This document shows, in pieces, positions 2,721 to 56,192 of a stretch of DNA of 60,545 nt. The translations under genes were made by a program, and so were the position numbers. The stretch is taken from assembly GCA_002897635.1 (NCBI GenBank), contig BDTD01000032.1:1-60545 (forward strand). Reading direction: 5' to 3'. Positions within the stretch are counted from its first letter, which is position 1. Each line of letters begins with the position of its first letter. The notes under the pieces were generated by a model. The model worked only from the letters and a program-made list of their open reading frames with translations. It made no database searches and was not told the origin of the DNA. The DNA is from a bacterium BMS3Abin11. GTDB lineage: Bacteria; Pseudomonadota; Gammaproteobacteria; BMS3Bbin11.

Positions 2721-2855
2721 CCTTGTGTCCTGCATGGGTAAATATAGCCGTTCATTATATAAGAAATTACTTATATAATCAATTCCAGACAATATGGTCA
2801 GGAATACACATTCGAAGAATCACACTGACGATCTGAAACAAAATATTAATAATAA

Positions 2856-3788: not shown

Positions 3789-3795
3789 AATAATT

Positions 3796-32717: not shown

Positions 32718-32732
32718 GTTAGGCGTCTTCTA

Positions 32733-35700
32733 TTAACTCTCTTGCAAAACCAGCAACGGCTGACCTGCGTTGATCTGGCTGCCCTCGTTACGATTGATGG
32801 CGTAAACAATACCGGCGTGCGGTGCGACTATTTCAATTTCCATTTTCATGGATTCAAGGATGACCATCGGCTGACCCTGTTCAATAATATCGCCCTGCTT
32901 AACCAGCATTTTCCATACATTGCCGGCAACAGGACTTTCAATTGCAACACACAGTTCCGGCAGCGCATCTTCTTCACCGATGTCGCTGGCAAGATCCTGT
33001 GCCGACTCAAAATTGATCTGACCAGATTCAATCCACCTCTGCAGCTCCTCATCGAAGGCTTTTTTACGTTTGCCTGTAAAATTTTCAATATCATTTTTAT
33101 TCAGCTGAAGAAAAGCTAGGTAGTCTTTTAAATTAAACCGTGTTTCTTCGATGTCGATGCTGTAACGGCCCTTGGGAAAGTCATAACGTATCTGTTTCAG
33201 TTCTTCTGCGCTAACTTCATAAAACTTAATTTGATCAAAGAAACGTAATAACCAGGGCTGAGTAAATTCTCTAGTTTTGTTATACCTGTTCCACATTTGT
33301 AGCGTACGGCCAACAAACTGGTAACCACCCGGCCCTTCCATGCCATAGACGCAGAGATAAGAGCCGCCTATGCCTACCGAGTTTTCTGCCGTCCATGTAC
33401 GTGCCGGATTATATTTTGTCGTAACCAAACGATGCCTGGGGTCCATCGGCGTGGCCACTGGGGCGCCCAGGTAAACGTCTCCTAGTCCCATCACCAGATA
33501 ACTGGCATCAAAAACAGTATTTTTGACCTGCTGAATATCATCCAGGCCATTGATACGTCGAATGAATTCAATATTATCCGGACACCAGGGGGCATCTTTT
33601 CGCACTGACTGCATGTACTTTTCAATCGCCAGACGGCAGGCATCATCGTCCCAGCTGAGTGGCAGATGTACTACTCGCGCAGGGATCTCAAGGTCTTCAA
33701 CATCTTTCAATACAGAAAGCGCGTTATCCAGAATAATTAACAGGTCCTTCAGCGAAATGACCTGGCTATCATAATGAATCTGTAAGGATCGAATGCCCGG
33801 CGTCAGCTCTAGCACACCTTCATCTTTGTTCCGCTGAAACCACAGCATTAAGGCATGTACCCTGCAACGATATTCGATATCGAGTTTTAATGCTCCGAAC
33901 TCCACCAGTAAATATTTTTCACCAGAGGGTCGATAGACAATTTGTACGCCGTGTTTCTTCGCATCTATTGATTTGATGATTGGGGTAGCAATCGATGTAG
34001 ATGAAACCCTGGCAGGAACATATTCCAGCCTCTCTATCGTATCTAACTGCGCTTTTTCTATGGCCACGGCATCTTCAATTGTGACTGCTATGAACTTTAC
34101 TTTATACCCTGCTTTTAACTGGCCCAGCTTCCATAAGTCTGCTGTAATGACAGTCGCTGGACAAACAAATCCTCCTAAGGATGGGCCATCCGGACCCAGA
34201 ATTACCGGCATATCACCGGTAAAATCCACTGTGCCAACCGCATAGGCATTATCGTGAATATTTGACGGATGCATACCCGCTTCGCCGCCATCACTTCTAG
34301 CCCATTCCGGCTTCGGTCCGACCAGCCTGACACCAGTACGACTGGAGTTGTAATGCACTTCCCAGTCAAATTCAAAAAATATCTTTATATCTTTTTCAGT
34401 AAAAAAGTCAGGGGCCCCATGCGGACCATAAATAACTCTTAACTGCCATGTATTGCTGATTTTTGGTATCAATTCACTGGGTAAACTGATTCCATCAGAC
34501 TTCTCTTTTTGCTTACTGAAATGCAAAACATCACCGGCACAAAGGGCACGGCCTGCATGGCCACCAAACTGGCCCAGGGTGAATGTGGAACGTGAGCCAA
34601 GATATTTAGGACAGTTAATTCCACCTTTGACAGACAAATAAGCTCGCGCGCCAGCAGAGGTTGTTTTGCCAATGTTTAATGTTTGTCCTGCTTTAACATC
34701 GATGACCTGCCAGAATGGTATTGCTGAACCATCCATATGTACATCCATTGCAGCACCGCTAAGGACGACTTGTGTATCATTATTAAATCTCAGTTTCGGC
34801 CCGTTAAGCGTGATTTCCAGTCCCGCAGCATCAGCGGGGTTGTTCAACAGTCGATTTCCTAAACTAAAACAATATTGATCAAATGGTCCTGAAGGCGGCA
34901 CGCCTATGTCCCAGTAACCGGTACGGGCCGGATAGTCCTGTATGGTGGTTAAGGTGCCGGAACTGATAACATCGATGGTACAGGGATGGCTGGTGAAGCT
35001 ATTTAAATATCGCGTGACTATTTCACCCTGTTTGAAGACATCTGTATTTAGAATTTCACGGACATAATTTATATTGGTTTCTACACCATACAAACTTGTC
35101 TCAGCTAATGCAGAATCCAGTTGTTGAATAGCAGCCGGGCGATCCTCCGCTGTGACAATAATTTTTGCCAGCAAGGGGTCAAATAAGGGAGATACCTCAA
35201 TGCCTGATTCCAACCAGTGATCAATACGCAGATACTCTTTTTCTGGAAATGACACCTCGCTAAGCAGGCCAGCGCAAGGCTGGAAATCCTTATTCGGATC
35301 CTCTGCATAAACGCGAGCCTGAATAGCATGGCCCGTTAACTGAAGCGCACCGCCTAAAACATCAAGATCAGGCAGTTCATTTGCAGCCAGCTTAACCATC
35401 CATTCTACCAGGTCAACATTATATACCTGCTCGGTAACACCATGCTCAACCTGTAAGCGCGTATTAACCTCAAGAAAGTAAAATTCATCTGATTTCTGAT
35501 CATAGACAAACTCTACCGTTCCAGCATTTCGATAATTAACGGCTTTTGCCAGTCGCACTGCCGTCTGATGCAGCTCTGCTCTTACTTGATTAGAAAGATT
35601 TGGTGCAGGTGTTTCTTCAATGACCTTCTGATTGCGTCGTTGCGTCGAGCAGTCACGTTCACCGATAGCAATGGCCTTGCCATTGCCATCACCAAACACC

Positions 35701-36332
35701 TGGACTTCAATGTGGCGGGCATACTCAATAAATTTTTCAATGAACAATCCGTCATTTGAAAAATTGTTTTCGCTTAAACGACGCACCGAGTCAAAGGATT
35801 TTTCCAGCTCCTGCTGATTCCAGCAAAGCTGCATGCCTATGCCGCCGCCCCCGGCTGTGCTTTTCAGCATAATGGGGTAACCAATGTTTTTAGCGGCTAC
35901 TACTGCCTCATTTATATTTTTCAGTAGATCAGTTCCCGGTAACAAAGGAATTTTATTTTCCTCTGCAAGCTTACGTGCCGTGTGCTTTAAGCCAAAGGAA
36001 CTCATCTGCCCGGTAGTCGGACCGATAAAGGCAATGTTATTTTCTTCGCATCTTTTTACAAATTCGGGATTTTCACTTAAAAAACCATATCCCGGATGAA
36101 CAGCTTCAACGCCGGACTTTTTTATAATGTCAAAAATCTTATCCTGGTCAAGATAAGTTTCAGCAGCTCGTCCTTCACCGAGTGAATAACTTTCATTTGC
36201 ATTTTGAACATGTAAAGAATCGATATCCGCTTCGTTATAAACAGAAATAGACTGACAACCCATCTGTTTTAAAGTACGGATGATGCGAGTAGCAATCGCC
36301 CCGCGGTTAGCTATAAGAACTTTAGTGAACAT
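32733..36332 (-). CDS. biotin-dependent urea/guanidine carboxylase
   Basis: A 1199-residue multidomain enzyme. Biotin carboxylase occupies about 1-450, with the ATP-grasp loop [10 protein letters not shown] near 158 and [15 protein letters not shown] near 290. The carboxyltransferase is of the KipA/KipI type ([20 protein letters not shown] near 470 and [14 protein letters not shown] near 790). The biotinyl lysine is in [10 protein letters not shown] near the C-terminus. Classic annotation is urea carboxylase. The guanidine-I riboswitch and the two DUF1989 genes of the same operon point to guanidine as substrate, giving carboxyguanidine. I did not decide the substrate from active-site residues. 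Confidence 0.92.
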   Translation of the reverse strand: [1199 protein letters not shown]

Positions 36333-36366
36333 AAATGTATTTGTTACATGCTACCCAATGATAGCT

Positions 36367-36443
36367 GTAGGAACGTCGCTCGGTGCGATTTTGTACCATC
36401 AATAAGTTAGTATCCGAAACAATCGCACCGAGCGATGCTCCTA
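36367..36443. repeat. REP-like inverted repeat within the guanidine operon
   Basis: GTAGGAACGTCGCTCGGTGCGATT (long arm 36367-36390, core CGCTCGGTGCGATT) recurs inverted at 36421-36443, about 30 bases apart. It lies between the DUF1989 gene and the carboxylase gene and may form a hairpin that stabilises or separates the mRNA segments. The sequence differs from the GTAGGTTCGAATTC family. Confidence 0.6.
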
Positions 36444-36530
36444 TATATTTATTGAGATTTCTATAACACTCCATTATCTGTTACAGGGCGTCCTGCTGAA
36501 ATACTATGGTCGACCGGATCGTTCCGGTGA

Positions 36531-37190
36531 CTACTTGTATAGTGCCTGGTTCCAGACCAGCACTTCTATCGGTGTTGGATTATATGCATTACAGGGGTTA
36601 TTCAGTTGTGGACAGTTTGAAATCAGGACAATAACGTCCATCAGGGCTTTCATCTCCACATATTTTCCAGCATCCGAAATACCGTCCTCAAATGTCAGCT
36701 GTCCGTCAGGGGTCACTGGCACATTCATGAAGAAATTTATATTGTGTGTAATATCCCGTTTTCCAATACCGAATTCCTCATGCTCTGCAACAGCAAGCAT
36801 CCAGCTGTCCCTGCAGGCATGCATGCATTTTTTCTCCAGTGCATAGCGCACGGTATTGCTTTCTGTTGCACAGGCGCCGCCCAGCGTATCGTGGCGACCG
36901 CAGGTATCGGCAATAATCTCGATCATTTCATTACATTGGTTTGATAACAGTTTTGTTCCACTGGTCAGGTATATATTTCCCTGCTCGCGAATGGTATCGA
37001 TAGCACTGTAACGCTCTGCCGGGTCATTGGCATTATAGAATAAGGTATCGGCCGCCTGGTTTCCTTCAAGATCAAGAATACGAAAGATCTGCCTCTGTTT
37101 CACAACATGGATAAAGTAATCACCGGCCAGTACGGTTTGCCGAAAGCTGGCCAGAGAAGAGTCTAGTTTGCTTTCCTTTATCATTTGCAA
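36531..37190 (-). CDS. cgdA: carboxyguanidine deiminase subunit (UAAP1, DUF1989)
   Basis: A 219-residue DUF1989 protein, formerly urea-carboxylase-associated protein 1. The conserved [19 protein letters not shown] and [14 protein letters not shown] motifs, with metal-binding type Cys and Asp residues, are visible. With its paralogue it is reported to deiminate carboxyguanidine to allophanate. It overlaps the upstream paralogue by 10 bp. The assignment of the A and B names is from memory of gene order and may be swapped. Confidence 0.82.
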
Positions 37191-37909
37191 GTACGCTCCG
37201 CATTATAGTGTTCTGTGTTTTTAAAACCGCGTTGGTTTTCCTCGCAAGCGTTCCGGCATAAATCATCGTCACTGACTGGTTTACCAACTGATATCTGATA
37301 AGTCACCGGTTTTTTTGGATATTCTGCCGCCGGGTTCATTGGATGAGGACAGGTATGAAAAATTACCAGTGTATCCATCTCGAAACGTAGTTCGATTGAG
37401 TCACCGGCCTGACTGTTGTTTTCAGCAAAAAGCATATTGCCTGTTTCATCTACCTCGACTTTGCTGAACAAATTCAGGTTAGCCGCCATGTCGCGTTGGT
37501 TCATGCCGTATTTGGCCATTTCAATAAGAAAACTATCATGCCCGTTCAGGGTCCAGTCATTACGATAATCCTGATAATTGTGCTCACCCCATTTTTCTTT
37601 CACACTTTGTTTGTTGCTGTTACCGCCCACTGTATCGTGCCAACTTACACTGTCATCAGTAATAGAACAGAAGATCCTTCCCATATCTGAGTATAGACAG
37701 TGCCCTTTGGTCAGTTTAAACGTATGCTGACATTTCAGAGTATCTGGCGCGTTATAGCGCTCGAGGTAGTTAGACGGGTTAAAAAATAGCATCCCAACAT
37801 TTGCACCACCATGCTGGTCAATCAATCGAAGCACGGTACCCTTGCGCATCTGCATCGACCAGTGTGCCCCACCAGGAATGCTATCTTCATCGATTATGGG
37901 ATTCGTCAT
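37181..37909 (-). CDS. cgdB: carboxyguanidine deiminase subunit (UAAP2, DUF1989)
   Basis: A 242-residue DUF1989 protein beginning [20 protein letters not shown]. The conserved [20 protein letters not shown] and [12 protein letters not shown] motifs parallel those of its partner. I place the start at 37909 because GAGAG lies upstream and the domain starts there; an open frame to 38041 would run into the ABC ATPase gene. Together with the following gene it should convert carboxyguanidine to allophanate plus ammonia. Confidence 0.83.
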
Positions 37910-37934
37910 AATAAAACTCTCACCTGAATTCCAA

Positions 37935-38726
37935 TTATTGCACCAGAAACTTCCGGCTGTCCTCAAGAGAAAGGTCGATATCCTGAAAAAGTGATTGTTT
38001 CGTCTGACCAACATCAATATCGTAAGTGATTGTCGAGCCAAAGCAATTCGGGCATTGGGGATCTAGTCGAATTTTATCAAAGACCCATAGTCGGGTTCCA
38101 AGATAAAAACCTTCTTTTAAATCATGCGTAATCATAAAAATAGTCAGGCCTGTTTCATTCCATAGCCGAAGAATTAAATCATGCATATCAGCACGGATGC
38201 CCGGATCCAGCGCGCCAAATGGTTCATCTAATAATAAAATTTTTGGTTTTCTCATCAAAGCCTGGGCAATAGCAAGCCGCTGCTGCATACCGCCAGAAAG
38301 CTGGTGTGGATATTGCTCAAGTACATGGCTCAGGCCTACAGAATCGAGCATTTCTTTTGCCTGTTCTTCTGCCTGTCTTCTTTTCTGACCGAATAATTTC
38401 CCCAGCAACCGGGATTGATGGAATTCTTCAGCAAGCAGTGTATTTTTCAACACGGTGAGATGCGGAAAAACAGAGTAGCGTTGAAACACTATCCCACGAT
38501 CATCATCTGGTTCAGCAGGAAAAGGCTTTCCATCCAGTAGCAGTTCACCGCGACTGGGCTGTTCTACGCCCAGCAACATCCGTAAAAAGGTTGTCTTGCC
38601 ACAACCGGAAGTACCTACGATAGTGATAAATTCACCTTTTTCAACCTGAACATTCACCTGCTCAAGTACGGTATTATCGCCGTATTCCTTCCACAAACTT
38701 TTTGCTTCTATCTGTGTCACTATCAT
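37935..38726 (-). CDS. ABC transporter ATP-binding protein, guanidine operon
   Basis: A 263-residue ATPase of the nitrate/sulfonate/taurine group: Walker A GTSGCGKT near residue 39, signature LSGGMQQRLAIA near 144, Walker B ILLLDEP near 164. It abuts the permease gene (stop and start adjacent at 38726/38727). In riboswitch-linked operons of this type the transporter is thought to import guanidine or a related compound. Confidence 0.9.
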   Translation of the reverse strand: MIVTQIEAKSLWKEYGDNTVLEQVNVQVEKGEFITIVGTSGCGKTTFLRMLLGVEQPSRGELLLDGKPFPAEPDDDRGIVFQRYSVFPHLTVLKNTLLAEEFHQSRLLGKLFGQKRRQAEEQAKEMLDSVGLSHVLEQYPHQLSGGMQQRLAIAQALMRKPKILLLDEPFGALDPGIRADMHDLILRLWNETGLTIFMITHDLKEGFYLGTRLWVFDKIRLDPQCPNCFGSTITYDIDVGQTKQSLFQDIDLSLEDSRKFLVQ

Positions 38727-39542
38727 TTACTTATCTGAGTGAAACCAGGGGAAAAGCCGTACTGACATAAATTTTAAAAGATAGTCGATTAAAAATGCCA
38801 GAAATGTAATCCATGCCACATAAGGTAATATGATGTCCATTGCAAGATAGCGACGCACCAGAAAGATGCGGTAGCCCAGGCCATCAGTTGAAGCAATTGC
38901 TTCTGCCGCAATCAGGAATAACCATGCAGCCCCGAGTGACAAGCGTAAGGCTCCAATCAATCGCGGTATTATCTGTGGTAGCACTACCCGGACAATAAGC
39001 AGCCAGCTTGAAGCGCCAAGAGTTTGCGCCTTGATTAACTGCTCATCAGGCAGTTCAAGCACCTTGCCCTGCAGGTCACGGATAATATAGGGCGTAATAC
39101 CAAAGGCAATTAGTATAACCTTGGAGAGTTCACCGAGGCCAAATACAATAAAAAGTATTGGCAATAATGCCAAAGGTGGAATAAGGGAAATAACGGTTAT
39201 TAAGGGTGATAAATTTGTGCGGCTATAAGGAATCACACCGTTTAAAACACCAAAGAAAAGCCCAATCAGTGCACTGATGCCGACGCCGAGACCCAGGCGC
39301 GTAAGACTCGACATCGTGTCCTGCCAGAAAAGATATTCACCGGTACGCTTACTGGGTTGCAGCGCAAGCTTTTGCATCGCCTTGCCCATGTTACTAATCG
39401 AAGGCAGTAGCTTATCGTCAAGATTTTCTGCCAGACGCGCATTAGATGCCACGATATAAATGAACAGGAGCAATAAAAAAGGCAACACACCAAGAATGAT
39501 CTTTTGTGTGGTGTCTGGATGCTGGTTTATTAGACGTTTCAT
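38727..39542 (-). CDS. ABC transporter permease, guanidine operon
   Basis: A 271-residue inner-membrane permease of the SsuC/TauC type with about six spans. The EAA-like coupling loop is visible in AQTLGASSWLLIVRVVLPQIIPRLIGALR. It forms the channel with the adjacent ATPase and the periplasmic binding protein upstream. Confidence 0.9.
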   Translation of the reverse strand: MKRLINQHPDTTQKIILGVLPFLLLLFIYIVASNARLAENLDDKLLPSISNMGKAMQKLALQPSKRTGEYLFWQDTMSSLTRLGLGVGISALIGLFFGVLNGVIPYSRTNLSPLITVISLIPPLALLPILFIVFGLGELSKVILIAFGITPYIIRDLQGKVLELPDEQLIKAQTLGASSWLLIVRVVLPQIIPRLIGALRLSLGAAWLFLIAAEAIASTDGLGYRIFLVRRYLAMDIILPYVAWITFLAFLIDYLLKFMSVRLFPWFHSDK

Positions 39543-39598
39543 TTTGCTAAACGAGCTGGCAATGCCAGCCCGTTTTTCCTGCAGCGCTTTATGACGAC

Positions 39599-40660
39599 TT
39601 ATAGCTTGCCGTCAGCAGACATTTGCATATAGGTGGGATCAAAACGCAGCTTGATATTACTCTTGTCACCAAAAATACCAACCGGCGATTCAATACCGAT
39701 GAAACCGGCATTTGGCGCACTGTCACCAAGCAAGCCATGATCGAATGAAAAACCGGCTACCTTAGCCATGGTATCTTTTAATGCAGCGCTATTGGTAAAC
39801 GCAACGGCGTCTTCCGCTCTGTAGAACATTTTGGTCGAGACAAGCTGAGCATCATAACCCTTCAGGTCTGTACCAGATGCTGCACCCATGCTGGTACGTG
39901 CTTCTATCGCTTTTGCTCCGCTTCCCTGCATTAACACCATTGTCTCATACCAGGCACCTGTCAGTGCTTTGCCAAGTTTGGGGTTCTCTTTCAGGGTCTT
40001 TGTATTTACCACCAGGAGGTCAATAATCTCACCGGGTATCTTACTGGAATCAAAAACCTTATAGCTATTCGGCATGGCCAGGATTTCACTCACCAGCGGG
40101 TTCCAGGTCGTAACAGCCGTGACTGAAGACGTAGTGTAAACGGCAACCATGTCAGCATCTGAAGTGTTCACAACTTTGACATCTTTTTCCGTAAGCCCGA
40201 CACTTTCCAGCGCTCTGGCAAGCAGGTAATGTGAGACACTCAGTTCAACCAGGTTGACATTCTGGCCCTTAATGTCTTTGAGTTCTTTTTTACCTTTCAG
40301 GATAACCGCGTCATTGCCGTTAGAAAAATCTCCAACAATCAGCGCAGTACTATCTACACCACTGGCTGCAGGAATGGTTAATGCGTCCATATTGGTCATT
40401 ACAGTGGCATCAAAACCGCCTGAGGTATACTGGTTAATCGATTCTACGTAATCATTAATCTGCACTAGCTCAATTTCGATACCGTATTTATCGGCCCATT
40501 TCTTAAGAACTCCTGAACTGTTGGCATAATCCCAGGGCATCCAGCCGACATAAATGCTCCAGGCAACCTTGAATTTGTCAGCGGCCATAGCAGAAGGTGT
40601 GGCCAGAATTGTTACTGGGATAATAAGAAGGATAAACAGTTTCTTGAATAGCGATTTCAT
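39599..40660 (-). CDS. ABC transporter substrate-binding protein, guanidine operon
   Basis: A 353-residue periplasmic protein with a signal peptide ending PSAMA about residue 26. The fold pattern (FKVAWSIYVGWMPWDYANSSG, then NQYTSGGFDATVMTNMDAL) is of the NMT1/TauA-like type. Relatives are labelled putative urea ABC transporter binding proteins, but the riboswitch in front supports guanidine. GGAG lies 8 bases before the ATG, next to an 8-base segment complementary to part of the riboswitch. It is the first gene of the operon. Confidence 0.9.
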   Translation of the reverse strand: MKSLFKKLFILLIIPVTILATPSAMAADKFKVAWSIYVGWMPWDYANSSGVLKKWADKYGIEIELVQINDYVESINQYTSGGFDATVMTNMDALTIPAASGVDSTALIVGDFSNGNDAVILKGKKELKDIKGQNVNLVELSVSHYLLARALESVGLTEKDVKVVNTSDADMVAVYTTSSVTAVTTWNPLVSEILAMPNSYKVFDSSKIPGEIIDLLVVNTKTLKENPKLGKALTGAWYETMVLMQGSGAKAIEARTSMGAASGTDLKGYDAQLVSTKMFYRAEDAVAFTNSAALKDTMAKVAGFSFDHGLLGDSAPNAGFIGIESPVGIFGDKSNIKLRFDPTYMQMSADGKL

Positions 40661-40912: not shown

Positions 40913-41015
40913 AATTCAATAGATATATTTAGTGTGTTAAATCAATAACTAATGAGGATGAAGTCAATAATGATGAATGAAGTGAGGGTCATAGTAGTGC
41001 GCCCATTTCAATTAC

Positions 41016-41030
41016 GCACTAAAAAGGTGC
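41016..41030. promoter_or_regulatory. NtrC-like enhancer site
   Basis: GCACTAAAAAGGTGC matches the NtrC pattern GCAC-N7-GTGC. It is centred about 137 bp upstream of the predicted sigma-54 start of the guanidine operon, a typical enhancer distance. Confidence 0.55.
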
Positions 41031-41051
41031 TTTGCGAAGGATCTCAGGCTG

Positions 41052-42107
41052 CTAAGCGGTAACTATTTGTGGGTATTGCTTATCAAGCTTTCGAAATTCT
41101 TTAGACGATTCACCTGTCCATTGCTTGAATGCACGAGAAAAGGAACTCATCTCGGAAAAGCCGAGCATAAAAGAGATTTCTGTAAGAGTTAGTTTACGGT
41201 CATGGATGTACTTCAGGGCTAGATCCTCCCTTACCTCAGTCAGTATGCTTTTAAAGGTAGTGCCTTTTTCACGCAGTTTTCTCTGCAGGCATCGTTTACT
41301 GGTATAGACAGCTTCGGAAACAGAGCCATCCGTAACATTACCAGGAGGCTACTGGTCGAGAATTGCGACTTTTACCTGTTGAATTATGTCATCTTTATCG
41401 TGCCTGGCCAGATAACTGATCATCACCTGATCATTGATCTGTGCCAGTTGCAGGTTGGAGCTGGTAAGGCGTTTATTGACCACATCCAGCGGCAGTATTA
41501 TCTGGTTTTGGCCAGCCCTAAATTCTACTGGACAGCGAAAAAAGCTGTAGTAATCTCCACTACAGAGTGTTGAGCCAGTATGTTTAAAACTAACAAAAAT
41601 GGGGTTCAACTCCTTGCCATAATTTACGCGGCACATGTTAATCAATATCGCTGATGAAGAATCGTCCTGGTAGTAATGAGGAAACTCTCTATCTTCTGAC
41701 GAGATAGTTATGACCAGCGTATTACCATCTTCTTCAAGCTCTACTGTAATAGCATCGTTGATTATACGGACATCGTGAAAGACGATTCAGTGCAGTATAG
41801 AGAGTGGAGCTTGCCAGCCATGCATAACCCAGTGTTGACAGATGTGAAGGATGCCATAAACTGGCAAGTTTTAGTCCCATACATAGGTCAACGAAGTTCC
41901 ATATAGCTCGCTATAAATGGCATCGATTGCCAGCGGGTTAAACCTGGCCTGCGGGTCATTTATCAATTGTGGGTTAATATGGGCTTTGCGAAAAAATGGC
42001 TCAGGATCGAGGCCATAGAACTCGATTACTTTCCATAGCAAACCCGCTGCAGATGCGAGTGTTGTCTGAGCCTTTGTTGTCATATCCGGAGACAATACCT
42101 TATCCAA
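41052..42107 (-). pseudogene. broken AraC-family transcriptional regulator
   Basis: Pieces of one regulator lie in three frames. The N-terminal part (from 42107) ends at 41871 with FNPLAIDAIYSELYG; the next frame continues GLKLASLWHPSHLSTLGYAW and ALNRLSRC; then INDAITVELEEDGNTLVIT and INMCRVNYGKEL follow in the third. A TAG after VAILDQ interrupts the frame before the HTH domain, which reads YTSKRCLQRKLREKGTTFKS and FSEMSSFSRAFKQWTGE to the final TAG at 41054-41052. Two frameshifts plus a stop make it a pseudogene. It may once have controlled the adjacent guanidine operon. Confidence 0.85.
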
Positions 42108-42210: not shown

Positions 42211-43161
42211 ATGGAATATAAAGATTACTACAAAATCATGGGCGTCAAGCGTGATGCAACACAGGATGAGATCAAGCGTTCCTACCGCAAGCTGGCGCGT
42301 AAGTATCATCCGGATGTCAGTAAGGCATCCAATGCAGAAGAACGTTTCAAGGAGGTTGGCGAAGCCTATGAGGTGTTAAAAGACCCTGAAAAACGCGCGG
42401 CCTATGATCAGTTAGGCTCAAACTGGCAGCAGGGGCAGGACTTCCAGCCTCCACCAGGATGGCAGGATGGGTTTGAATTCAGCGGTGGTGGTTACACGGA
42501 AGCCAATTCAGCACATTTTAGTGATTTTTTTGAGGATCTGTTTGGACGTGCTGGCGGTGCAGGCTTTCAGCAGGGCCGACAGTATAGCTTCCAAATGAAA
42601 GGTGAAGATCACCATGCAAAGGTAGGTGTGTCTCTGGAAGATGCCTACCACGGCGCCACGCGGGCCATCACATTGAAAATGCCCGAAGTCGATGCCTCAG
42701 GCCATCTCGTCACACGTGAACGCAAGTTGAATATAAAAATCCCGAAAGGTGTCACACAAGGGCAAAGAATTCGCCTGCGCGGCCAGGGCGGCCCTGGTAG
42801 CGGTGATGCGCCAGCTGGCGATCTCTATCTGGAAATTGATCTGTTACCCCACTCTATTTACACTGTAGATGGGCGCGATATATATGTAGATCTGCCGGTT
42901 AGTCCATGGGAGGCGGCCCTGGGTGAAAAAGTTTCCATCCCAACACTGGGAGGCAAGGTTGAGATGAAAATACCTGCGGGATCACAGAGCGGCAGCAAGC
43001 TTCGCCTTAAAGGACGCGGCATACCCGCTAAGAAAAAAGGTGATCAATTTGTGGTACTCAAAATTGTAACCCCTGAAGCCAAAACTGAAAAACAGAAAAA
43101 ACTGTATCGCCAGATGCGGGAAGAAATGAACTTTAACCCGCGCAGCCGGTTAGGAGTATAA
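42211..43161 (+). CDS. cbpA: curved-DNA-binding DnaJ-type co-chaperone
   Basis: A 316-residue type II J protein. The J domain (about 1-70) has the HPD motif in KYHPDVSK, a Gly/Phe-rich part follows, then two C-terminal substrate-binding domains (LNIKIPKGVTQGQRIRLRGQG and EMKIPAGSQSGSKLRLKGRG). There is no zinc-binding Cys domain. It stimulates DnaK and can bind DNA. The cbpM gene follows 2 bp downstream. Confidence 0.93.
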   Translation: MEYKDYYKIMGVKRDATQDEIKRSYRKLARKYHPDVSKASNAEERFKEVGEAYEVLKDPEKRAAYDQLGSNWQQGQDFQPPPGWQDGFEFSGGGYTEANSAHFSDFFEDLFGRAGGAGFQQGRQYSFQMKGEDHHAKVGVSLEDAYHGATRAITLKMPEVDASGHLVTRERKLNIKIPKGVTQGQRIRLRGQGGPGSGDAPAGDLYLEIDLLPHSIYTVDGRDIYVDLPVSPWEAALGEKVSIPTLGGKVEMKIPAGSQSGSKLRLKGRGIPAKKKGDQFVVLKIVTPEAKTEKQKKLYRQMREEMNFNPRSRLGV

Positions 43162-43163
43162 AA

Positions 43164-43466
43164 ATGTCCAGGCATACCATGAACATCGAAATCATTGACG
43201 AGCATTTTGAATTCACCCTCGCCGACCTCTGCCAATGCTGTGCGGTGCAGGCAGAAACCATCATCGCCATGGTTGAAGAAGGCATGCTGTCGCCCGCAGG
43301 ATCATCACCCGCTGACTGGCGCTTCACCGGCATCGCCCAACGACATGTAGAAATCACCTTACATCTGCAAAGAGATTTACGCGTAAACCTGCCAGGTGCG
43401 GCACTGGCACTGGAGTTGATGGAAGAGATTGATATGCTGCGGAGACAACTGCAGAGAAAAGGGTAA
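43164..43466 (+). CDS. cbpM: CbpA modulator protein
   Basis: A 100-residue MerR-HTH-like protein with FTLADLCQCCAVQAETIIAMV and DWRFTGIAQRHVEITLHLQRD, typical of CbpM. It binds the J domain of CbpA and inhibits it. Position directly after cbpA supports the call. Confidence 0.88.
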   Translation: MSRHTMNIEIIDEHFEFTLADLCQCCAVQAETIIAMVEEGMLSPAGSSPADWRFTGIAQRHVEITLHLQRDLRVNLPGAALALELMEEIDMLRRQLQRKG

Positions 43467-45342: not shown

Positions 45343-47046
45343 TTAAAACAGAAAGTAGCGTTGTGCCATCGGCAGAACTTTTGCCGGCTCACAGGTCAGT
45401 AGCTCACCGTCTGCACGCACTTCATAAGTTTGCGAATCGACCGAAATTTCCGGCAGGTAATCATTCAACAGCATATCTTTTTTTGTAACTGAACGGCACC
45501 GTTTTACCACACCAATCATGCTTTGCAAATTGAGTTCTTCATGCACCGCCGCGTCGTAGCCTGCCTGAGATAGAAAGGTCATCGATGTGGCATTGCGTGC
45601 CCCACCCAGAGCAGCAAACATGTGGCGATAGTGTACAGGCTGCGGTGTTGGGATGGATGCATTCGGATCACCCATAGGCGCGGCAACGATCATTCCACCT
45701 TTTATGATGACGCCGGGCTTACTGCCGAAAAAGGCCGGTTTCCATAACACCAGATCGGCAAGTTTACCGACTTCTATCGAACCCACTTCATGGCTGATGC
45801 CATGTGCCAGAGCAGGATTGATTGTGTATTTGGCAATATAACGTTTGACCCGGGCATTATCTGAATCTGCCGGGTCACCCGCCAGACTACCGCGCTGCAC
45901 CCGCATCTTGTGAGCGGTCTGCCAGGTGCGAGTAATGACCTCTCCAACACGCCCCATGGCCTGCGAGTCCGAAGCAATCATTGAAAAGGCGCCCAGGTCG
46001 TGCAATATGTCCTCGGCTGCAATGGTCTCTCTTCTAATGCGTGATTCGGCAAAGGCCACATCTTCGGCGATATTCGGATCAAGGTGATGACAGACCATCA
46101 GCATATCCAGGTGTTCATCAATGGTGTTAATGGTGTAGGGACGGGTCGGGTTAGTTGAAGAAGGTAATACATTTTTATAGCCACAGACCTTGATGATGTC
46201 CGGTGCATGGCCGCCACCTGCTCCTTCTGTATGATAGGTATGAATAGTGCGCCCTTTCATGGCAGCAAGACTGTCTTCAACAAACCCGGATTCATTCAGG
46301 GTGTCTGTATGAATCGCAACCTGTACATCGTATTCTTCAGCTACCGCCAGACAATTATCAATGGATGCGGGTGTGGTCCCCCAGTCTTCGTGCAATTTAA
46401 GACCAATGGCACCAGCCATGACTTGCTCCGCCAGCGCCTCGGGTAAACTGGCATTACCTTTCCCGAGATAACCAAGATTCATAGGCAGTTCATCCGATGC
46501 CTGCAACATTCTGTGTATATTCCACGGTCCTGGGGTACATGTAGTGGCATTTGTCCCGGTCGCTGGACCGGTTCCGCCACCCAGCATCGTCGTCACACCA
46601 GACATCAGGGCATCCTCGACCTGTTGTGGACAGATAAAATGTATATGTGAATCTATACCACCGGCGGTCAATATCTGCCCTTCTCCAGCAATCACCTCAG
46701 TGCCCGGTCCAATAACGATGCTAACCGCCGCCTGGGTATCGGGATTGCCTGCCTTGCCTATGCCCGCTATACGTCCATCCTTGATGCCGACATCCGCCTT
46801 AACAATGCCCCAGTGATCCAGAATCAGGGCATTGGTAATGACCACATCAACCACGTCAGCAGAGATTCTTTGACTCTGCCCCATACCATCACGAATGACT
46901 TTGCCACCACCAAATTTCACCTCGTCACCATAGACGGTGTGGTCATCCTCAACGGCAATCCACAAATCCGAATCACCGAGTCGAACACGATCGCCGATAC
47001 TGGGGCCATACATTTCGGCATAGGCCTGTTTACTGATTTTTGCCAT
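45343..47046 (-). CDS. ureC: urease subunit alpha
   Basis: A 567-residue catalytic subunit. DSHIHFICP provides nickel ligands, GLKLHEDWG the carbamylated lysine, [12 protein letters not shown] and [12 protein letters not shown] further ligands, and MVCHHLD the flexible flap catalytic histidine. Length is typical. It follows the fused gamma/beta subunit by 2 bp. Confidence 0.97.
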
Positions 47047-48706: not shown

Positions 48707-49402
48707 CTATACAGTCAGATATTTGCGAATCAGTTCATCATTCAGATCATTTATTTCTGCCGCAGCCATCATCTGGCCACGGTCCAGAATAATAAATGAA
48801 TCTGCCACGCGGCGTACGAAAGGAAGTTTCTGCTCTACCAGTAAAACTGTCAAACCAATCTCGCGGTTCAGTTTGCGAATCACGTCACCAATCTCCTGAA
48901 CAATATTTGGTTGTATGCCCTCAGTCGGCTCATCCAGTATCAACAGTTCTGGATCTATGACCAATGCCCTGCCTATGGCCAGTTGCTGCTGCTGTCCACC
49001 CGATAAATCCCCGCCGCGACGACCATGCATTTCTTTTAAAACAGGAAACATCTCATATATGAATTCCGGGATAATCTTCAAACCATCACGTCGGGCCTGC
49101 AAACCAATTCGAAGATTCTCCTCCACTGTCAGTAGCGGAAAAATCTGGCGCCCCTGAGGCACATAACCGATACCCATATGGGCCCGCCGTTCTGCAGATA
49201 ATTTCGTCAGGTCTTTGTCCTGATAGTATATTGCTCCTTTCCTCACCGGCAGTGAGCCCATGATGCATTTCAACAGGGTCGTTTTACCGACACCATTACG
49301 CCCCATAAGGCAAGTGCACTCACCTTTTTTTACATCAAAAGAGATATCCCACAGGATATGACTTTCGCCATAGTACTGGTTGATGCCTTCGAGTTTAAGC
49401 AC
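48707..49402 (-). CDS. urtE: urea ABC transporter ATP-binding protein UrtE
   Basis: A 231-residue LivF-type ATPase: Walker A GRNGVGKTTLL near 34, signature LSGGQQQQLAIG near 134, Walker B LLILDEPTEGIQP. The start is a GTG at 49402-49400. That codon lies in CACTAGTG, which is repeated 266 bp further up at the urtD stop; a 258-bp element separates the two copies. The original arrangement was probably a TAGTG overlap. Confidence 0.93.
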   Translation of the reverse strand: MLKLEGINQYYGESHILWDISFDVKKGECTCLMGRNGVGKTTLLKCIMGSLPVRKGAIYYQDKDLTKLSAERRAHMGIGYVPQGRQIFPLLTVEENLRIGLQARRDGLKIIPEFIYEMFPVLKEMHGRRGGDLSGGQQQQLAIGRALVIDPELLILDEPTEGIQPNIVQEIGDVIRKLNREIGLTVLLVEQKLPFVRRVADSFIILDRGQMMAAAEINDLNDELIRKYLTV

Positions 49403-49407
49403 TAGTG

Positions 49408-49665
49408 CTCCTTCAACCTGATAATGACGGGTTCAGTTAGCTTGTCAACGCTCATGGCAAGACGCGCCTCGCAGGCAATGGTTATTCCCTTGTCAAGAGG
49501 CGCAACGTAGTCCATGGGCGTTGACAAGCTAACCCAAAGGGCGCCCCTGTGGTGTCTCGCCGCTTCGTTCCAGTGCTTGCCAAGGGAATAACCATTACCT
49601 TTGCACTGCGCCTTGCTGCGAAACACCACAGGGATGCTGAACCCGTCATTATCAGGTTGAAGAAA
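49408..49665. mobile_element. 258-bp palindromic insertion between urtD and urtE
   Basis: The element has 26-bp perfect terminal inverted repeats (49411-49436 and 49637-49662, starting CTTCAACCTGATAATGACGG). It is flanked by the 8-bp direct repeat CACTAGTG at 49400-49407 and 49666-49673, a probable target duplication. Inside are further inverted pairs: 49436-49451 with 49518-49533, and 49477-49492 with 49581-49596. The insertion falls on the urtD stop/urtE start overlap and restores both. The 88-codon frame inside it is probably not a gene. Confidence 0.82.
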
Positions 49666-49667
49666 CA

Positions 49668-50498
49668 CTAGTGCCCTCCCAGGTAGACGTCAACCACACG
49701 CTGATTATTTTGCACATCTTCCATCGAGCCTTCGGCCAGCACATGTCCCTGATGCAGAACAGTGACCGGACTATCCAGTGAACGAACAAAGTCCATATCA
49801 TGCTCGACGACGATGACAGATTGTTCACCTGCCAGTGTTTTAAGCAACTCTGCAGTACGATCCATCTCCTGATGCGTCATGCCGGCTACTGGTTCATCCA
49901 CCAGTAATAATTCTGGCTTTTGCATTAGCAGCATACCTATCTCCAGCCACTGTTTCTGACCATGGGACAAGACCCCGGCCTCTGCTTTTATCTGTTCGCT
50001 CAAACCGATGACTTCAAGTACTTCATCTATATGATCACGCTGTTCACCAGTTAAACGGGCAAACAGGGTAGGAAAGACCTTTTTGTTGCTGGACATCGCC
50101 AGCTCCAGGTTTTCAAACACACTATGGCACTCAAATACGGTTGGTTTCTGAAATTTCCGGCCTATGCCAGCCTCGGCAATTTCTGCTTCGGACATGCGTA
50201 GTAGATCCATTCTCTGACCAAACCAGGCTGAGCCGGCATCCGGTCTAGTTTTCCCTGTGACAACATCCATCATGGTGGTCTTCCCTGCACCATTGGGTCC
50301 GATTATGCAGCGGAGTTCACCTGCATCAATATATAAATTGAGATCGTCGATTGCTTTAAAACCATCAAAACTGACGGTAATACCCTCAAGGTAAAGAATT
50401 GTTCCATGGCTCAGATCCAGTTCATCCGTAACTTTAGGAATCATGAAATCATATACCTGGGCGCGATCCACCATCGAACGTAGTGTCCGGCGAATCAT
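49668..50498 (-). CDS. urtD: urea ABC transporter ATP-binding protein UrtD
   Basis: A 276-residue LivG-type ATPase with Walker A GPNGAGKTTMMDV near residue 67, signature LSHGQKQWLEIGM (the SHGQ form is typical of UrtD) and Walker B LLLVDEPVAGM. It overlaps urtC by 4 bp. Its stop TAG lies in the CACTAGTG copy that borders the inserted element. Confidence 0.93.
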   Translation of the reverse strand: MIRRTLRSMVDRAQVYDFMIPKVTDELDLSHGTILYLEGITVSFDGFKAIDDLNLYIDAGELRCIIGPNGAGKTTMMDVVTGKTRPDAGSAWFGQRMDLLRMSEAEIAEAGIGRKFQKPTVFECHSVFENLELAMSSNKKVFPTLFARLTGEQRDHIDEVLEVIGLSEQIKAEAGVLSHGQKQWLEIGMLLMQKPELLLVDEPVAGMTHQEMDRTAELLKTLAGEQSVIVVEHDMDFVRSLDSPVTVLHQGHVLAEGSMEDVQNNQRVVDVYLGGH

Positions 50499-51583
50499 GA
50501 GGAAGCTCTCTGGCGATTCAGCACCCCTACCAGGCCTTTAGGCAGATAGAGCGTAGAAAGAACAAACAGCGCACCCAGTGCAAATAACCAGACCTCCGGG
50601 AAAACACCAGTGAAATAGGTCTTGGCATAATTTACCAGCACCGCCCCGGCAGCGGCACCATACAGGGTTCCTCTACCACCAACAGCAACCCATATGACCA
50701 CTTCAATTGAATTCAGAGGTGAGAATTCTCCCGGGTTGATAATTCCTACCTGCGGCACATACAGTGCACCAGCGATACCGGCAAGTGCGGCTGAAAATGT
50801 AAATATGGCCAGTTTCACATATTCGACCCGGTAGCCAATAAAACGAGTGCGGTCTTCCGCATCGCGTATCGCGACAACCACACGTCCCAACTTGGACTTA
50901 ACTATCGCCCGGCAGGCAAGGTAACCGAAGCCCAACGCCAGGGCAGAGGCAATGAACAGGCCTATGCGTGTGCTATCGGTATGTAAATCAAAACCCAGTA
51001 AATCCTTAAAATCAGTCAGACCATTATTACCGCCAAAGCCCATCTCGTTGCGAAAAAATGCCAGCATAAGGGCATAAGTCAGGGCCTGGGTAATAATAGA
51101 CAGATAGACACCGGTTACTCTTGAACGAAATGCCAGCCAGCCAAACACATATGCCAATACCCCCGGCACCAGAACAACCATAATGGTGGCAAACCAGAAC
51201 ATGTCGAAGCCCTGCCAGAACCAGGGCAATTCGCTATAATTCAAAAATACCATGAAGTCCGGTAACACCGGGTTGCCGTAGACACCACGATCACCAATCT
51301 GACGCATCAGATACATACCCATTGCATAGCCGCCTAAGGCAAAAAATGCCGCATGGCCCAGGCTCAGTATACCGAGATAGCCCCAGACCAGATCAACAGC
51401 AATAGCAAGTAATGCATAAGTCAGGTATTTACCCAGCAAGGTGACGGTGTAGGTGGAAAGATGCAGCGCGCTGGATTCCGGTACCACAAGATTTAATACA
51501 GGCACCACAATCAATGCTATAAGTAACAAGCTCATCAAGGTCTGGCCGCCACGATCATTTTTTAGTATTCGCGCGATAAACAT
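50495..51583 (-). CDS. urtC: urea ABC transporter permease UrtC
   Basis: A 362-residue LivM-type permease with about ten spans; DLVWGYLGILSLGHAAFFALGGY is the typical motif and GYRVEYVKLAIFTFSAALAGIAGALY follows the coupling loop. It starts 4 bp after urtB and overlaps urtD. Confidence 0.93.
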   Translation of the reverse strand: MFIARILKNDRGGQTLMSLLLIALIVVPVLNLVVPESSALHLSTYTVTLLGKYLTYALLAIAVDLVWGYLGILSLGHAAFFALGGYAMGMYLMRQIGDRGVYGNPVLPDFMVFLNYSELPWFWQGFDMFWFATIMVVLVPGVLAYVFGWLAFRSRVTGVYLSIITQALTYALMLAFFRNEMGFGGNNGLTDFKDLLGFDLHTDSTRIGLFIASALALGFGYLACRAIVKSKLGRVVVAIRDAEDRTRFIGYRVEYVKLAIFTFSAALAGIAGALYVPQVGIINPGEFSPLNSIEVVIWVAVGGRGTLYGAAAGAVLVNYAKTYFTGVFPEVWLFALGALFVLSTLYLPKGLVGVLNRQRASS

Positions 51584-51587
51584 TCTG

Positions 51588-53195
51588 TTAGCCCTCAGCT
51601 GAACGCCCTTTCTGCGGGAATAAACCGCGTGGACGTTTCTGTATGAACAGAATGATAAAAATCAGGATCAATATTTTGGCAAGTACTGCCCCGACCCAGG
51701 GTTCAAGAAACTGATTGGCAATACCCAAACTGAAACCACTGATCAATGTACCCGCAAGATTTCCCACACCACCGAAAACAACTACCATGAAAGAATCCAC
51801 TATATAGGCTTGGCCCAGATTCGGCCCCACATTGGTCAGCTGTGAAAGGGCAACGCCTGCCACGCCGGCAATACCGGAACCAAGGCCAAAGGTCATTGCA
51901 TCTACCCACGCAGAGCGCACACCCATAGCACGCGCCATGGTACGGTTTTGTGTAACCGCCCGTACCTGCAAGCCTAAGGAAGTCCTCTTCAGGATTAGAA
52001 ACAGGGCGGTAAATACCAGCAAAGAGAAAAAGATAATATAGAACCGGTTGTATGTCAGAGACAGAGCACTGTTTATTTCTAACGAACCTGACATCCAGTC
52101 TGGCGTAATCACTGAACGGTTGAGTGGAGAGAAGATGCTGCGAACGGTTTGTTGTAAAATCAGACTGATCCCAAAGGTCGCCAGTAATGTTTCTAATGGT
52201 CGACCGTATAAATGGCGAATCACAGTTTGTTCAATCAATATACCTACCAGGCCCGAAACAATAAAGGCCACAGGAATAGCAAGCAGTATTGAAACCCCTA
52301 TAAACTCCGGTATGGCCTGCTGTATCACATAGGTTGTGTAAGCACCCAGCATAATGAGTTCACCGTGTGCCATATTAATAACACCCATGACACCAAAGGT
52401 GATCGCCAGGCCAATAGCTGCCAGTACCAGTACCGAACCCAGACTTAAGCCAAAAAATAAGGTTTCAAGAAAGCTGTATAGCTGCAGCTTTGCATTGATA
52501 TTGTTCAATGACGTTTTCGCAGCCATACGCACTTCTTCATCAGGGTCATTAGCAACAATCGACTCAAGCTTACTGCGAACGATAGGCACCAGACTGCCAG
52601 ATACCCTTGCAATTGCAGTTAATCTACCCTCTTTCTTACCACCTTCAAGCCTGGTGATGGCGAGAGCCTGTTCAATGACGTCACGGACTTTCTGATCCTG
52701 CTCTAGTTCAAGGCGGTGCTGTAATTGTTCAATCACGCCAGCATCAGGGTTGCTGAGCATGGTTTTTACAGCCTGATAGCGCACAACAGCATCAGCGCTA
52801 TTCAATTCTTTAGCCGCCAGGACCGTGCGTATTTTCTTTCGTATCGCGTTATTTGAACGAATTTTCTTTATTTCACGCTTTTTAACCATACCAAGTTCGT
52901 CACCCTTCAATGCGTCAGAAATAGAATATTGTCTGCCCTGTTTTTTAGCTATCAGTAAAAGTTTGTCGGATTTCCGATAGTACAGTTCACTATCCAGAAA
53001 GGCCTTCAGAATCTCTACGGTACGGGGATGGGAATGCAATGCCAGTAGAGAAACGGCCTGCGTTTTTTTAGTGAAATTATTACTGATCAACAAAGCCTGA
53101 ATCTGTTCTAGTGAATTGTCATCAGCCATTACCAGGCCAGTCTGCATGATAAGTAAGGAGAGTAGAAAAAATAATATTTTGGGCCAGCGACACAT
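51588..53195 (-). CDS. urtB: urea ABC transporter permease UrtB
   Basis: A 535-residue protein. A signal-like N-terminus (MCRWPKILFFLLSLLIMQTG) and a periplasmic HEAT-like helical region of about 200 residues precede the LivH-type permease part (GVMGVINMAHGELIMLGAYT near 320). This extended N-terminus is usual for UrtB. The start at 53195 is preferred; a frame open to 53342 runs through the terminator hairpin. It is separated from urtA by that hairpin. Confidence 0.92.
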   Translation of the reverse strand: MCRWPKILFFLLSLLIMQTGLVMADDNSLEQIQALLISNNFTKKTQAVSLLALHSHPRTVEILKAFLDSELYYRKSDKLLLIAKKQGRQYSISDALKGDELGMVKKREIKKIRSNNAIRKKIRTVLAAKELNSADAVVRYQAVKTMLSNPDAGVIEQLQHRLELEQDQKVRDVIEQALAITRLEGGKKEGRLTAIARVSGSLVPIVRSKLESIVANDPDEEVRMAAKTSLNNINAKLQLYSFLETLFFGLSLGSVLVLAAIGLAITFGVMGVINMAHGELIMLGAYTTYVIQQAIPEFIGVSILLAIPVAFIVSGLVGILIEQTVIRHLYGRPLETLLATFGISLILQQTVRSIFSPLNRSVITPDWMSGSLEINSALSLTYNRFYIIFFSLLVFTALFLILKRTSLGLQVRAVTQNRTMARAMGVRSAWVDAMTFGLGSGIAGVAGVALSQLTNVGPNLGQAYIVDSFMVVVFGGVGNLAGTLISGFSLGIANQFLEPWVGAVLAKILILIFIILFIQKRPRGLFPQKGRSAEG

Positions 53196-53226
53196 ATCAA
53201 TCACAATGTTCAAAGGAGAAAAAATA

Positions 53227-53258
53227 AAACCGCTCCGACATGATATCCGGAGCGGTTT
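53227..53258 (-). terminator. attenuating terminator between urtA and urtB
   Basis: AAACCGCTCCG (53227-53237) and CGGAGCGGTTT (53248-53258) form a perfect 11-bp stem. On the minus strand it is followed by TATTTTTTCT. It lies after urtA and before urtB, so it should lower transcription of the membrane and urease genes relative to the binding protein. Confidence 0.8.
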
Positions 53259-53374
53259 CAAGGTATGCTTGAATATATGAAATGAAATTGCCGCGCTTCG
53301 GTACTCGTACTCGTGACCGTAGGAAATACTCGAAGGGTGCAATGACGAGATTCTATGATTGACTCAGAACTTCC

Positions 53375-54667
53375 TTAGAAGTTCTGGCCAGAACACTTGC
53401 CTGTTTTAACATTATAGTTACCACAGGATAGTGGCTCGCGCCAGTCAGCGATAATATCCTTAGATCCCGGAAGGTAATCTGACCATGCGTCACCGGCTAC
53501 AAGACCGGGAGTTTCCCAGACAACTTCAAACTGACCATCCGCCTGGATTTCGCCGATGAGGACTGGTTTGGTAATATGATGGTTAGGCATCATCGCTGAC
53601 AATCCGCCGGAGAGATTAGGCACAGCGATGCCTATTATAGCTTTCTGCACGGCAGTAGGATCTGTAGTCCCCGCTTTCTTCACTGCTTTTACCCACATAT
53701 TAAAACCAATATAGGTGGCTTCCATTGGGTCGTTCGTTACGCGCTTCTTATCCTTGATATAAGCATGCCACGTGTCAATGAAGGAATCATTCGCATCAGA
53801 ATCAACGCTCATGAAGTAATTCCATGCGGCCAGATGGCCCACCAGAGGCCTGGTATCAATACCAGACAGTTCCTCTTCACCAACGGAGAACGCCATAACC
53901 GGAATGTTTTCAGCAGATATGCCCTGATTGCCCAGCTCTTTATAGAAGGGAACGTTAGCATCACCATTTACAGTTGATACAACTGCGGTCTTCTTCCCGG
54001 TAGACCCGAACTTCTTAATACGCGCCACTTCAGACTGCCAGTCAGAGAACCCAAAGGGGGTGTAGTTAATAAGGATATCTTTTTCGTCTACACCTTTTGC
54101 CTTCAGATAGGCTTCAAGAATTTTGTTGGTCGTACGTGGATAGACATAATCGGTACCTTCCAGCACCCAACGTTTTACACCGATGTCTTTCATCAGGTAG
54201 TCAACAGCGGGAATAGCCTGCGTGTTTGGTGCGGCACCTGTATAAAAGACGTTTTTGGATGATTCTTCACCTTCATACTGAACCGGATAAAATAATAAAT
54301 TATTCAGCTCTTCAAACACGGGAAGAACTGATTTACGTGAAACAGAAGTCCAGCCACCAAATACTACAGCGACCTTTTCCTTTTCAATTAATTCACGTGC
54401 TTTCTCGGCGAAAAGTGGCCAGTTTGAGGCCGGATCAACAACGATAGCTTCAAGCTTTTTACCGAGCAAACCACCTTTCTTATTCTGCTCTTCAACCAAC
54501 ATTAAGACAGTATCTTTGAGAGTTGTCTCACTAATCGCCATGGTTCCTGACAGAGAATGCAAAACACCTACCTTTATAGTGTTCTCAGCAGCCTGGGTAG
54601 GCGCTGATAGCACCACTGCGACAGCAAAACCGACTGCAGCTTTTTTCAGTGTATTTATGAATAACAT
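53375..54667 (-). CDS. urtA: urea ABC transporter substrate-binding protein UrtA
   Basis: A 430-residue periplasmic protein with a signal peptide ending PTQAA about residue 27. IKVGVLHSLSGTMAISE opens the mature domain, and KVAVVFGGWTSVSRKSVLPV and FYPVQYEGEESSKNVFYTGA are hallmark UrtA segments. AGGAG lies before the ATG. Transcription is predicted from a sigma-54 promoter about 40 nt upstream. Confidence 0.95.
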   Translation of the reverse strand: MLFINTLKKAAVGFAVAVVLSAPTQAAENTIKVGVLHSLSGTMAISETTLKDTVLMLVEEQNKKGGLLGKKLEAIVVDPASNWPLFAEKARELIEKEKVAVVFGGWTSVSRKSVLPVFEELNNLLFYPVQYEGEESSKNVFYTGAAPNTQAIPAVDYLMKDIGVKRWVLEGTDYVYPRTTNKILEAYLKAKGVDEKDILINYTPFGFSDWQSEVARIKKFGSTGKKTAVVSTVNGDANVPFYKELGNQGISAENIPVMAFSVGEEELSGIDTRPLVGHLAAWNYFMSVDSDANDSFIDTWHAYIKDKKRVTNDPMEATYIGFNMWVKAVKKAGTTDPTAVQKAIIGIAVPNLSGGLSAMMPNHHITKPVLIGEIQADGQFEVVWETPGLVAGDAWSDYLPGSKDIIADWREPLSCGNYNVKTGKCSGQNF

Positions 54668-54718: not shown

Positions 54719-54734
54719 AGCAACAAACATGCCA
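54719..54734 (-). promoter_or_regulatory. sigma-54-type promoter of urtA
   Basis: On the minus strand TGGCATGTTTGTTGCT matches the -24/-12 pattern with GG and GC 12 bp apart. The start would be near 54709, giving a leader of about 42 nt. Confidence 0.75.
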
Positions 54735-54796
54735 CTTTATTTATTCAATTATTTACAATTACTTATGGTGAATTTGATATTCCTAATTTTGTTTCA

Positions 54797-54813
54797 GGCA
54801 CTACTTAGGTGCA
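54797..54813. promoter_or_regulatory. NtrC-like site 1
   Basis: GGCACTACTTAGGTGCA contains GCAC-N7-GTGC. Its centre is about 97 bp upstream of the predicted urtA start. Confidence 0.6.
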
Positions 54814-54836
54814 TTTTTTACTCTCTGGGATAGATT

Positions 54837-54853
54837 TGCACCATTCGCGACCA
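54837..54853. promoter_or_regulatory. NtrC-like half site
   Basis: TGCACCATTCGCGACCA has one perfect half (TGCACCA) and a poor second half. It lies about 137 bp upstream of the urtA start. Weak on its own; supported by the two neighbours. Confidence 0.35.
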
Positions 54854-54923
54854 ATTTGAATGGACTTCGATATCCTGAACAAAAATAATCAGGCATCCCC
54901 ACCCTCTTAGCCTGCTGATTAAA

Positions 54924-54940
54924 TGCACCAGCAGGGTGCA
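54924..54940. promoter_or_regulatory. NtrC-like site 2, perfect palindrome
   Basis: TGCACCAGCAGGGTGCA has perfect TGCACC and GGTGCA arms with a 5-bp spacer. It is about 132 bp upstream of the porin promoter start and about 224 bp from that of urtA, so it may serve both. Confidence 0.7.
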
Positions 54941-55036
54941 GCTAAGTTCCAAGTAGGCACATTTATCGGTAAATTATTTTCATCGATATAACAACAAAAA
55001 CCCATATCTATTTGATTTATATCATTAATGATAAAT

Positions 55037-55052
55037 TGGCACACATAATGCT
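55037..55052 (+). promoter_or_regulatory. sigma-54-type promoter of the porin gene
   Basis: TGGCACACATAATGCT has TGGCAC and TGC with GG and GC 12 bp apart. Start predicted near 55064, leaving about 84 nt before the ATG at 55148. Confidence 0.65.
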
Positions 55053-55958: not shown

Positions 55959-55984
55959 AAAAGGCACCTTCGGGTGCCTTTTTT
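55959..55984 (+). terminator. intrinsic terminator after the porin gene
   Basis: AAGGCACC and GGTGCCTT form the stem around a TTCG tetraloop, followed by TTTTTT. The flanking A and T runs extend the stem and allow function in both directions. Confidence 0.9.
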
Positions 55985-56192
55985 CATTTCTAAAGCTAAT
56001 GGATGCCTCCAGGTAATTTCCTTTCAATTGACTGTTGTAACCAGAACCATACTTCACGATAAATGACAAAACAAACCAGCTGGATCAAGCTAAACTTGAT
56101 TTATCACTATTTCATGTTATACCAATAAAGGTTATTTTCACGACATTTTGTTGCAATCTGTCAACCCTGAAACCACTATTCCGGAAAATTCC

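Follow-up and report, generated by a model that had tools for sequence, protein, structure and literature searches.

What does an outer-membrane porin do beside the genes for a urea transporter? The DNA analyzed here (the window, 60,545 nucleotides; contig C32 of a 2.67-Mb genome) carries ureG-ureF-ureE-ureC-ureAB-ureD and urtE-urtA on its minus strand and a porin gene on the opposite, plus strand, with a 480-bp gap separating the urtA start (54667) from the porin ATG (55148). The porin belongs to TorF/Gcw_chp, a widespread family that still bears the label ‘unknown function’. The original prediction held that divergent sigma-54 promoters sharing NtrC sites place both genes under nitrogen control, and that the porin may therefore admit urea or other small nitrogen compounds. 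In the window the porin gene is flanked by urtA and a cytochrome c gene; the window does not show the layout of an nlmA-glnK-amtB type locus, in which the porin lies directly upstream of glnK and amtB. An intrinsic terminator follows the porin gene, suggesting that it is probably monocistronic here (Table 1). Within the urea genes, UrtB (51588-53342, minus strand) has a long N-terminal extension of HEAT-like repeats ahead of its permease domain, and a similar extension is visible in locus L020. A match to the 5'-ureB sRNA (46611-46897) was set aside, as it runs antisense to ureC and probably reflects nothing more than conservation of the coding sequence.

The porin scores 115.1 bits against TIGR02001, ‘TorF family putative porin’ (curated cut-off 47.15), and 81.4 bits against PF09694 (cut-off 24), and it is the sole Gcw_chp protein of the genome. 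A structure model of only moderate confidence (pLDDT 76, pTM 0.74) predicts a signal peptide, as an N-terminal helix, and a 12-stranded beta-barrel, the combination of signal peptide and outer-membrane barrel expected of a TorF-family protein. No sequence relatives of the porin were found among solved structures. By fold, the porin KdgM scored highest of the solved structures listed as matches when TM-scores are taken by target length (0.75, 3.6 Å). KdgM and NanC are 12-stranded. Both are monomeric porins (PDB 4fqe and 2wjq), and it is KdgM that the window porin resembles in fold; however, they are channels for oligogalacturonate and sialic acid, share approximately 11–13% identity with the window porin, and offer nothing that points to a common substrate.

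Table 1. Features of the window that bear on the porin and on urea or guanidine use; promoters and NtrC sites are predictions.
Feature	Coordinates	Strand	Basis or comment
‘Urea carboxylase’ operon	30888-40660	-	
Full Guanidine-I riboswitch, RF00442	40725-40842	-	80.2 bits; between predicted sigma-54 start (~40886) and the operon’s first gene
NtrC palindrome of urea-carboxylase operon	41015-41031		
Urease genes ureD-ureG	downstream of urtB-urtE, to 43530	-	
urtB-urtE, remaining urea ABC transporter	48707..53342	-	urtB from TIGR03409, urtC-urtE from position and translation
urtA, urea ABC transporter substrate-binding protein	53375..54667	-	TIGR03407 passed
Sigma-54 promoter of urtA, TGGCATGTTTGTTGCT	54719..54734	-	predicted start ~54708
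NtrC palindrome GGCACTACTTAGGTGCA	54797..54813	.	exact GCAC-N7-GTGC; centre -97 from urtA start
Degenerate NtrC site TGCACCATTCGCGACCA	54837..54853	.	half site TGCACCA at 54837-54843; ~-137 from urtA start
NtrC palindrome TGCACCAGCAGGGTGCA	54924..54940	.	all 12 consensus bases; centre -131 from porin start
Sigma-54 promoter of porin, TGGCACACATAATGCT	55037..55052	+	predicted start ~55063
TorF-family (Gcw_chp, TIGR02001/PF09694) putative porin, 247 aa	55148..55891	+	profiles, fold prediction, motif WGNTGDTYW
Intrinsic terminator after porin, GGCACC-TTCG-GGTGCC-TTTTTT	55960..55985	+	

The elements proposed for the gap are present: a sigma-54-type promoter faces each way, one perfect and one further exact NtrC palindrome lie between them, and the half site is there as well. 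The two promoters stand approximately 330 bp apart, and each (TGGCATGTTTGTTGCT and TGGCACACATAATGCT) departs from TGGCAC-N5-TTGCW by one mismatch. Neither motif is significant alone, as the window holds 48 matches to the sigma-54 pattern at two or fewer mismatches (43 expected) and 18 NtrC palindromes with one mismatch allowed (24 expected). Significance comes from combining the motifs as a spaced pair. The window contains three exact GCAC-N7-GTGC palindromes, two of them in the urtA/porin gap, and each of the three precedes a predicted sigma-54 start, by 97 bp at urtA, 131 bp at the porin and 137 bp at the urea-carboxylase operon (40660); 300 Markov-1 shuffles of the window, which control for composition only, yielded no such pair. 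The promoter weights were drawn from general knowledge of the consensus and were untrained. A motif scan of the kind first suggested therefore finds pairs far above chance, though not single motifs, and the porin gene has the predicted -24/-12 element and upstream palindrome of an NtrC/sigma-54 regulon member.

Conservation points the same way. Both promoters and both palindromes are conserved across four congeneric species, and three congeners retain them with urtA and the porin divergent. Across the four species, 24 of the 25 motif-core bases on the urtA side are invariant, against a background of 38/175 (Fisher p 3e-13), as are 18 of 18 on the porin side, against 80/219 (Fisher p 5e-8). The sigma-54 core is invariant at 10/10 positions for the porin and 9/10 for urtA, as are the core of the perfect palindrome and the half site TGCACCA. 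Shuffles and conservation together strongly support the nitrogen control first proposed for the porin, and on sequence grounds we regard its regulation by NtrC/sigma-54 as very likely.

The idea that the two promoters share their NtrC sites, in contrast, had to be rejected. In the congener G004, an insertion of approximately 4 kb (L053 ~1380-5420; one MAG contig) separates the half site from the porin palindrome. It carries genes for a sensor kinase and a response regulator, further genes of cytochrome-like type, and the remnant of a DnaJ region, which matches window positions 43106-43323 at 77.5%. Each promoter retains its own NtrC site, the equivalent of palindrome 54924-54940 staying with the porin. 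Because this split, seen on one MAG contig, leaves both halves complete, the gap is best described as two independent back-to-back units rather than one common control, with palindrome 54924-54940 as the predicted enhancer of the porin promoter and palindrome 54797-54813 as that of the urtA promoter.

Linkage of the porin to urea genes extends well beyond the genus. In a sample of the class, UrtA and a Gcw_chp protein are encoded within 3 kb of each other in 13 of the 43 genomes that have both, by a count made by hand, and these represent six families. The tail probability is 5e-23 if 0.3% per genome is assumed and 9e-10 when families are counted instead; many of the compared genomes are apparently MAGs. 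The original prediction raised the question of whether urtA and TorF-family genes stay divergent in other genomes: they do within this genus, but elsewhere the porin and urtA stand in tandem on one strand as ureG-[NtrC/sigma54]-porin-urtABCDE, and the divergent arrangement was seen in this genus only. An NtrC/sigma-54 pair lies upstream of 15 of the 16 urt-linked porins (each p<0.05 vs 300 shuffles), whereas a comparable promoter is generally lacking in front of urtA itself in the tandem loci. Between porin and urtA, 8/11 tandem loci (L055, L056, L071, L073, L074, L075, L077 and L020) have a hairpin with a T run behind it, one of them with a 1.6-kb gap, and L054 has a hairpin with no clear T run. 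These hairpins suggest attenuation, by which the porin product would exceed the transporter.

The linked porins are also related to one another. Of the 16 urt-linked porins, 15 group with three others in one clade of a maximum-likelihood tree built from 50 TorF proteins; the clade has 100/100 support and a long stem, and all 20 proteins from glnK-amtB-linked loci fall outside it. A second tree with added Betaproteobacteria recovers the same clade. Every clade member of the first tree carries the motif WGNxGDxYW, which is found in none of the 32 other TorF porins. The window porin falls inside this clade and reads WGNTGDTYW. The proposed tie between the porin and urea uptake is therefore supported well outside the window, as it recurs in several families and in two kinds of gene order and involves a porin subfamily of its own, and we consider it probable that the porin is functionally linked to urea-type nitrogen uptake. 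Locus L075 (G304:C40) carries two urea-clade porins and two UrtA-type genes inside 12 kb.

A profile search of 369 genomes identified close clade members (E below 1e-80) in 19, and in 14 of these the porin lies beside urea-transport or urease genes (12 urt-linked, 2 urease-adjacent). The urease-adjacent members directly follow ureG (G303) or follow ureG and a HupE/UreJ-like gene (G008); in G008 the porin and urtA contigs both end there, so adjacency is possible. Speaking against a urea role, one clade member (G180) precedes glnK-amtB and four (G026, G040, G078 and G240) have no recognized nitrogen neighbors, in a neighbor test whose queries were the window proteins with the GlnK and AmtB of L020 and which may miss other nitrogen genes. 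In G050, the position between ureG and urtA is taken by a TorF porin that belongs to a different clade, showing that this slot is not strictly tied to the urea subfamily.

Our best reading of these data, which we hold to be reasonably likely, is that the window porin is a 12-stranded porin, induced by nitrogen limitation and belonging to a urea-associated TorF subfamily, that feeds urea, and perhaps guanidine, to UrtA. Under nitrogen shortage, phosphorylated NtrC at 54924-54940 would activate sigma-54 RNA polymerase at 55037-55052, and the porin would be made. A parallel NtrC/sigma-54 unit (54797-54853 with 54719-54734) would drive urtABCDE and might also drive the urease genes that follow; the units lie back to back, and each would be switched on independently. 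The porin would raise the permeability of the outer membrane for urea, possibly also for guanidine or similar small nitrogen solutes, and would thereby supply UrtA at low external concentration; UrtA would capture urea, UrtBCDE would import it, and urease would split it. That urea itself is the main substrate is only slightly favored. The sequence itself shows how the promoters are built and conserved, how often the porin is linked to urea genes, and that its clade is separate and carries its own motif; that NtrC binds, that the porin is induced and sits in the outer membrane, and what it carries are inferences.

General porins already let urea through, and a dedicated urea channel is therefore not a necessity. 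TorF porins might instead be general nitrogen-stress channels, made under nitrogen limitation and passing any small solute (ammonium, amines, amides) with no preference for urea, their gene order reflecting regulon clustering only. Many TorF porins outside the urea clade do lie directly upstream of glnK-amtB: 18 of the 30 TorF loci sampled first adjoin glnK and/or amtB, nearly all directly upstream of glnK. (A frame at 17408 in L020, considered as a third TorF gene, was rejected; it is AmtB.) Similarly, 20 of the 34 porins that are not urt-linked have a significant NtrC/sigma-54 pair, the urea-clade member of G180, with the motif WGNKGDAYF, precedes glnK-amtB, and three of the four clade members lacking nitrogen neighbors (G026, G078 and G240) retain the promoter in the absence of urea genes. 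Yet the urea-linked porins form a single long-stem clade with its own invariant motif, and a non-specific porin need not diverge with its neighbors. We consider a general channel unlikely on balance.

Guanidine is also a serious candidate, whether in place of urea or alongside it. The window’s ‘urea carboxylase’ operon has both a Guanidine-I riboswitch and an NtrC/sigma-54 promoter, suggesting that it probably serves guanidine use and is probably under dual control by nitrogen status and guanidine. In Cupriavidus basilensis pRK1-2, a clade porin ends the UAAP1-UAAP2-uca-atzF operon, in which a Guanidine-II riboswitch stands ahead of uca, and in Ideonella a clade porin precedes an ABC transporter distantly related to that of the window’s guanidine operon. 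A channel for guanidine, or for guanidine and urea, could supply the nearby operon as well as UrtA; most clade members, however, adjoin urt or ure genes rather than guanidine genes, and the window porin lies approximately 15 kb from the guanidine operon. We rate this reading as rather improbable. Upstream of the operon, at 41080-42100 on the minus strand, reading by eye revealed a remnant with broken frames that resembles an AraC-type regulator.

It is very improbable that the porin plays no part in nitrogen uptake and is present only by accident of a bidirectional NtrC region, as the closeness of the two promoters in this genome might suggest. This reading is already largely refuted by the tandem loci of other families, in which an NtrC promoter stands in front of the porin, and it is further opposed by the G004 porin, which keeps its own NtrC site and promoter after the insertion, and by the unlinked clade members that retain theirs.

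Returning to a porin that feeds urea to UrtA, we found no TorF subfamily specific to urea loci in the literature searched. We tentatively propose, as a possibility that we would not yet call likely, that the proteins marked by WGNxGDxYW are a previously unrecognized TorF subfamily that serves Gammaproteobacteria, broadly defined, as a dedicated outer-membrane channel for high-affinity acquisition of urea and guanidine, one that co-evolved with urtABCDE/urease and is switched on by NtrC. Many of the sampled gammaproteobacterial members of this family are now tied to nitrogen uptake, and the subfamily with the diagnostic motif goes with urea transport or degradation, including an operon with a guanidine riboswitch. 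If the proposal is true, the scavenging of urea, a process of importance to nitrogen cycling in the sea and in soil, includes a regulated step at the outer membrane, and what an orphan porin family transports can be tested directly.

Such an arrangement has parallels. The nlmA-glnK-amtB operon of Herbaspirillum seropedicae is reported to be NtrC-dependent and raised under nitrogen limitation, NlmA being a membrane protein of unknown function (PMC3023670). By locus layout, nlmA is the first gene of an NtrC-dependent nitrogen-uptake operon, in the same order as the TorF-glnK-amtB loci found here; its partner is an ammonium channel, whereas that of the window porin is a urea transporter. FmdC of Methylophilus methylotrophus is a reported amide/urea outer-membrane porin encoded beside an amide/urea uptake system (PMC10781810). 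Its reported function is comparable to the role proposed for the window porin, but its gene lies in a formamidase cluster and is induced by its substrates. From these reports, nitrogen control of a gene in such a position and a urea porin each have precedent. TorF itself, SO4694 of Shewanella oneidensis, is listed as a TMAO reductase system outer membrane porin (PMC5955497). Compared by name and listing, it shares the name echoed in the NCBI family name and is a putative outer-membrane porin tied to another small neutral nitrogen solute; its context is TMAO respiration rather than nitrogen assimilation.

The genome encodes RpoN and a true, full-score NtrC. A pattern search found 35 exact NtrC palindromes genome-wide. 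Those with a good sigma-54 partner are confined to urtA and the porin, the urea-carboxylase/guanidine operon, the gap between fixA and nifA, and the gene for a NarK-like transporter; at glnA the sigma-54 element that goes with the palindrome is imperfect (the narK, fixA/nifA and glnA identities were read from translations). Double NtrC sites precede the NarK-like transporter gene on contig C15 (L092), and NtrC/sigma-54 sites lie between fixA and a NifA-like gene on contig C18 (L096), which suggests that nitrogen fixation and nitrate use may be among the organism’s abilities.
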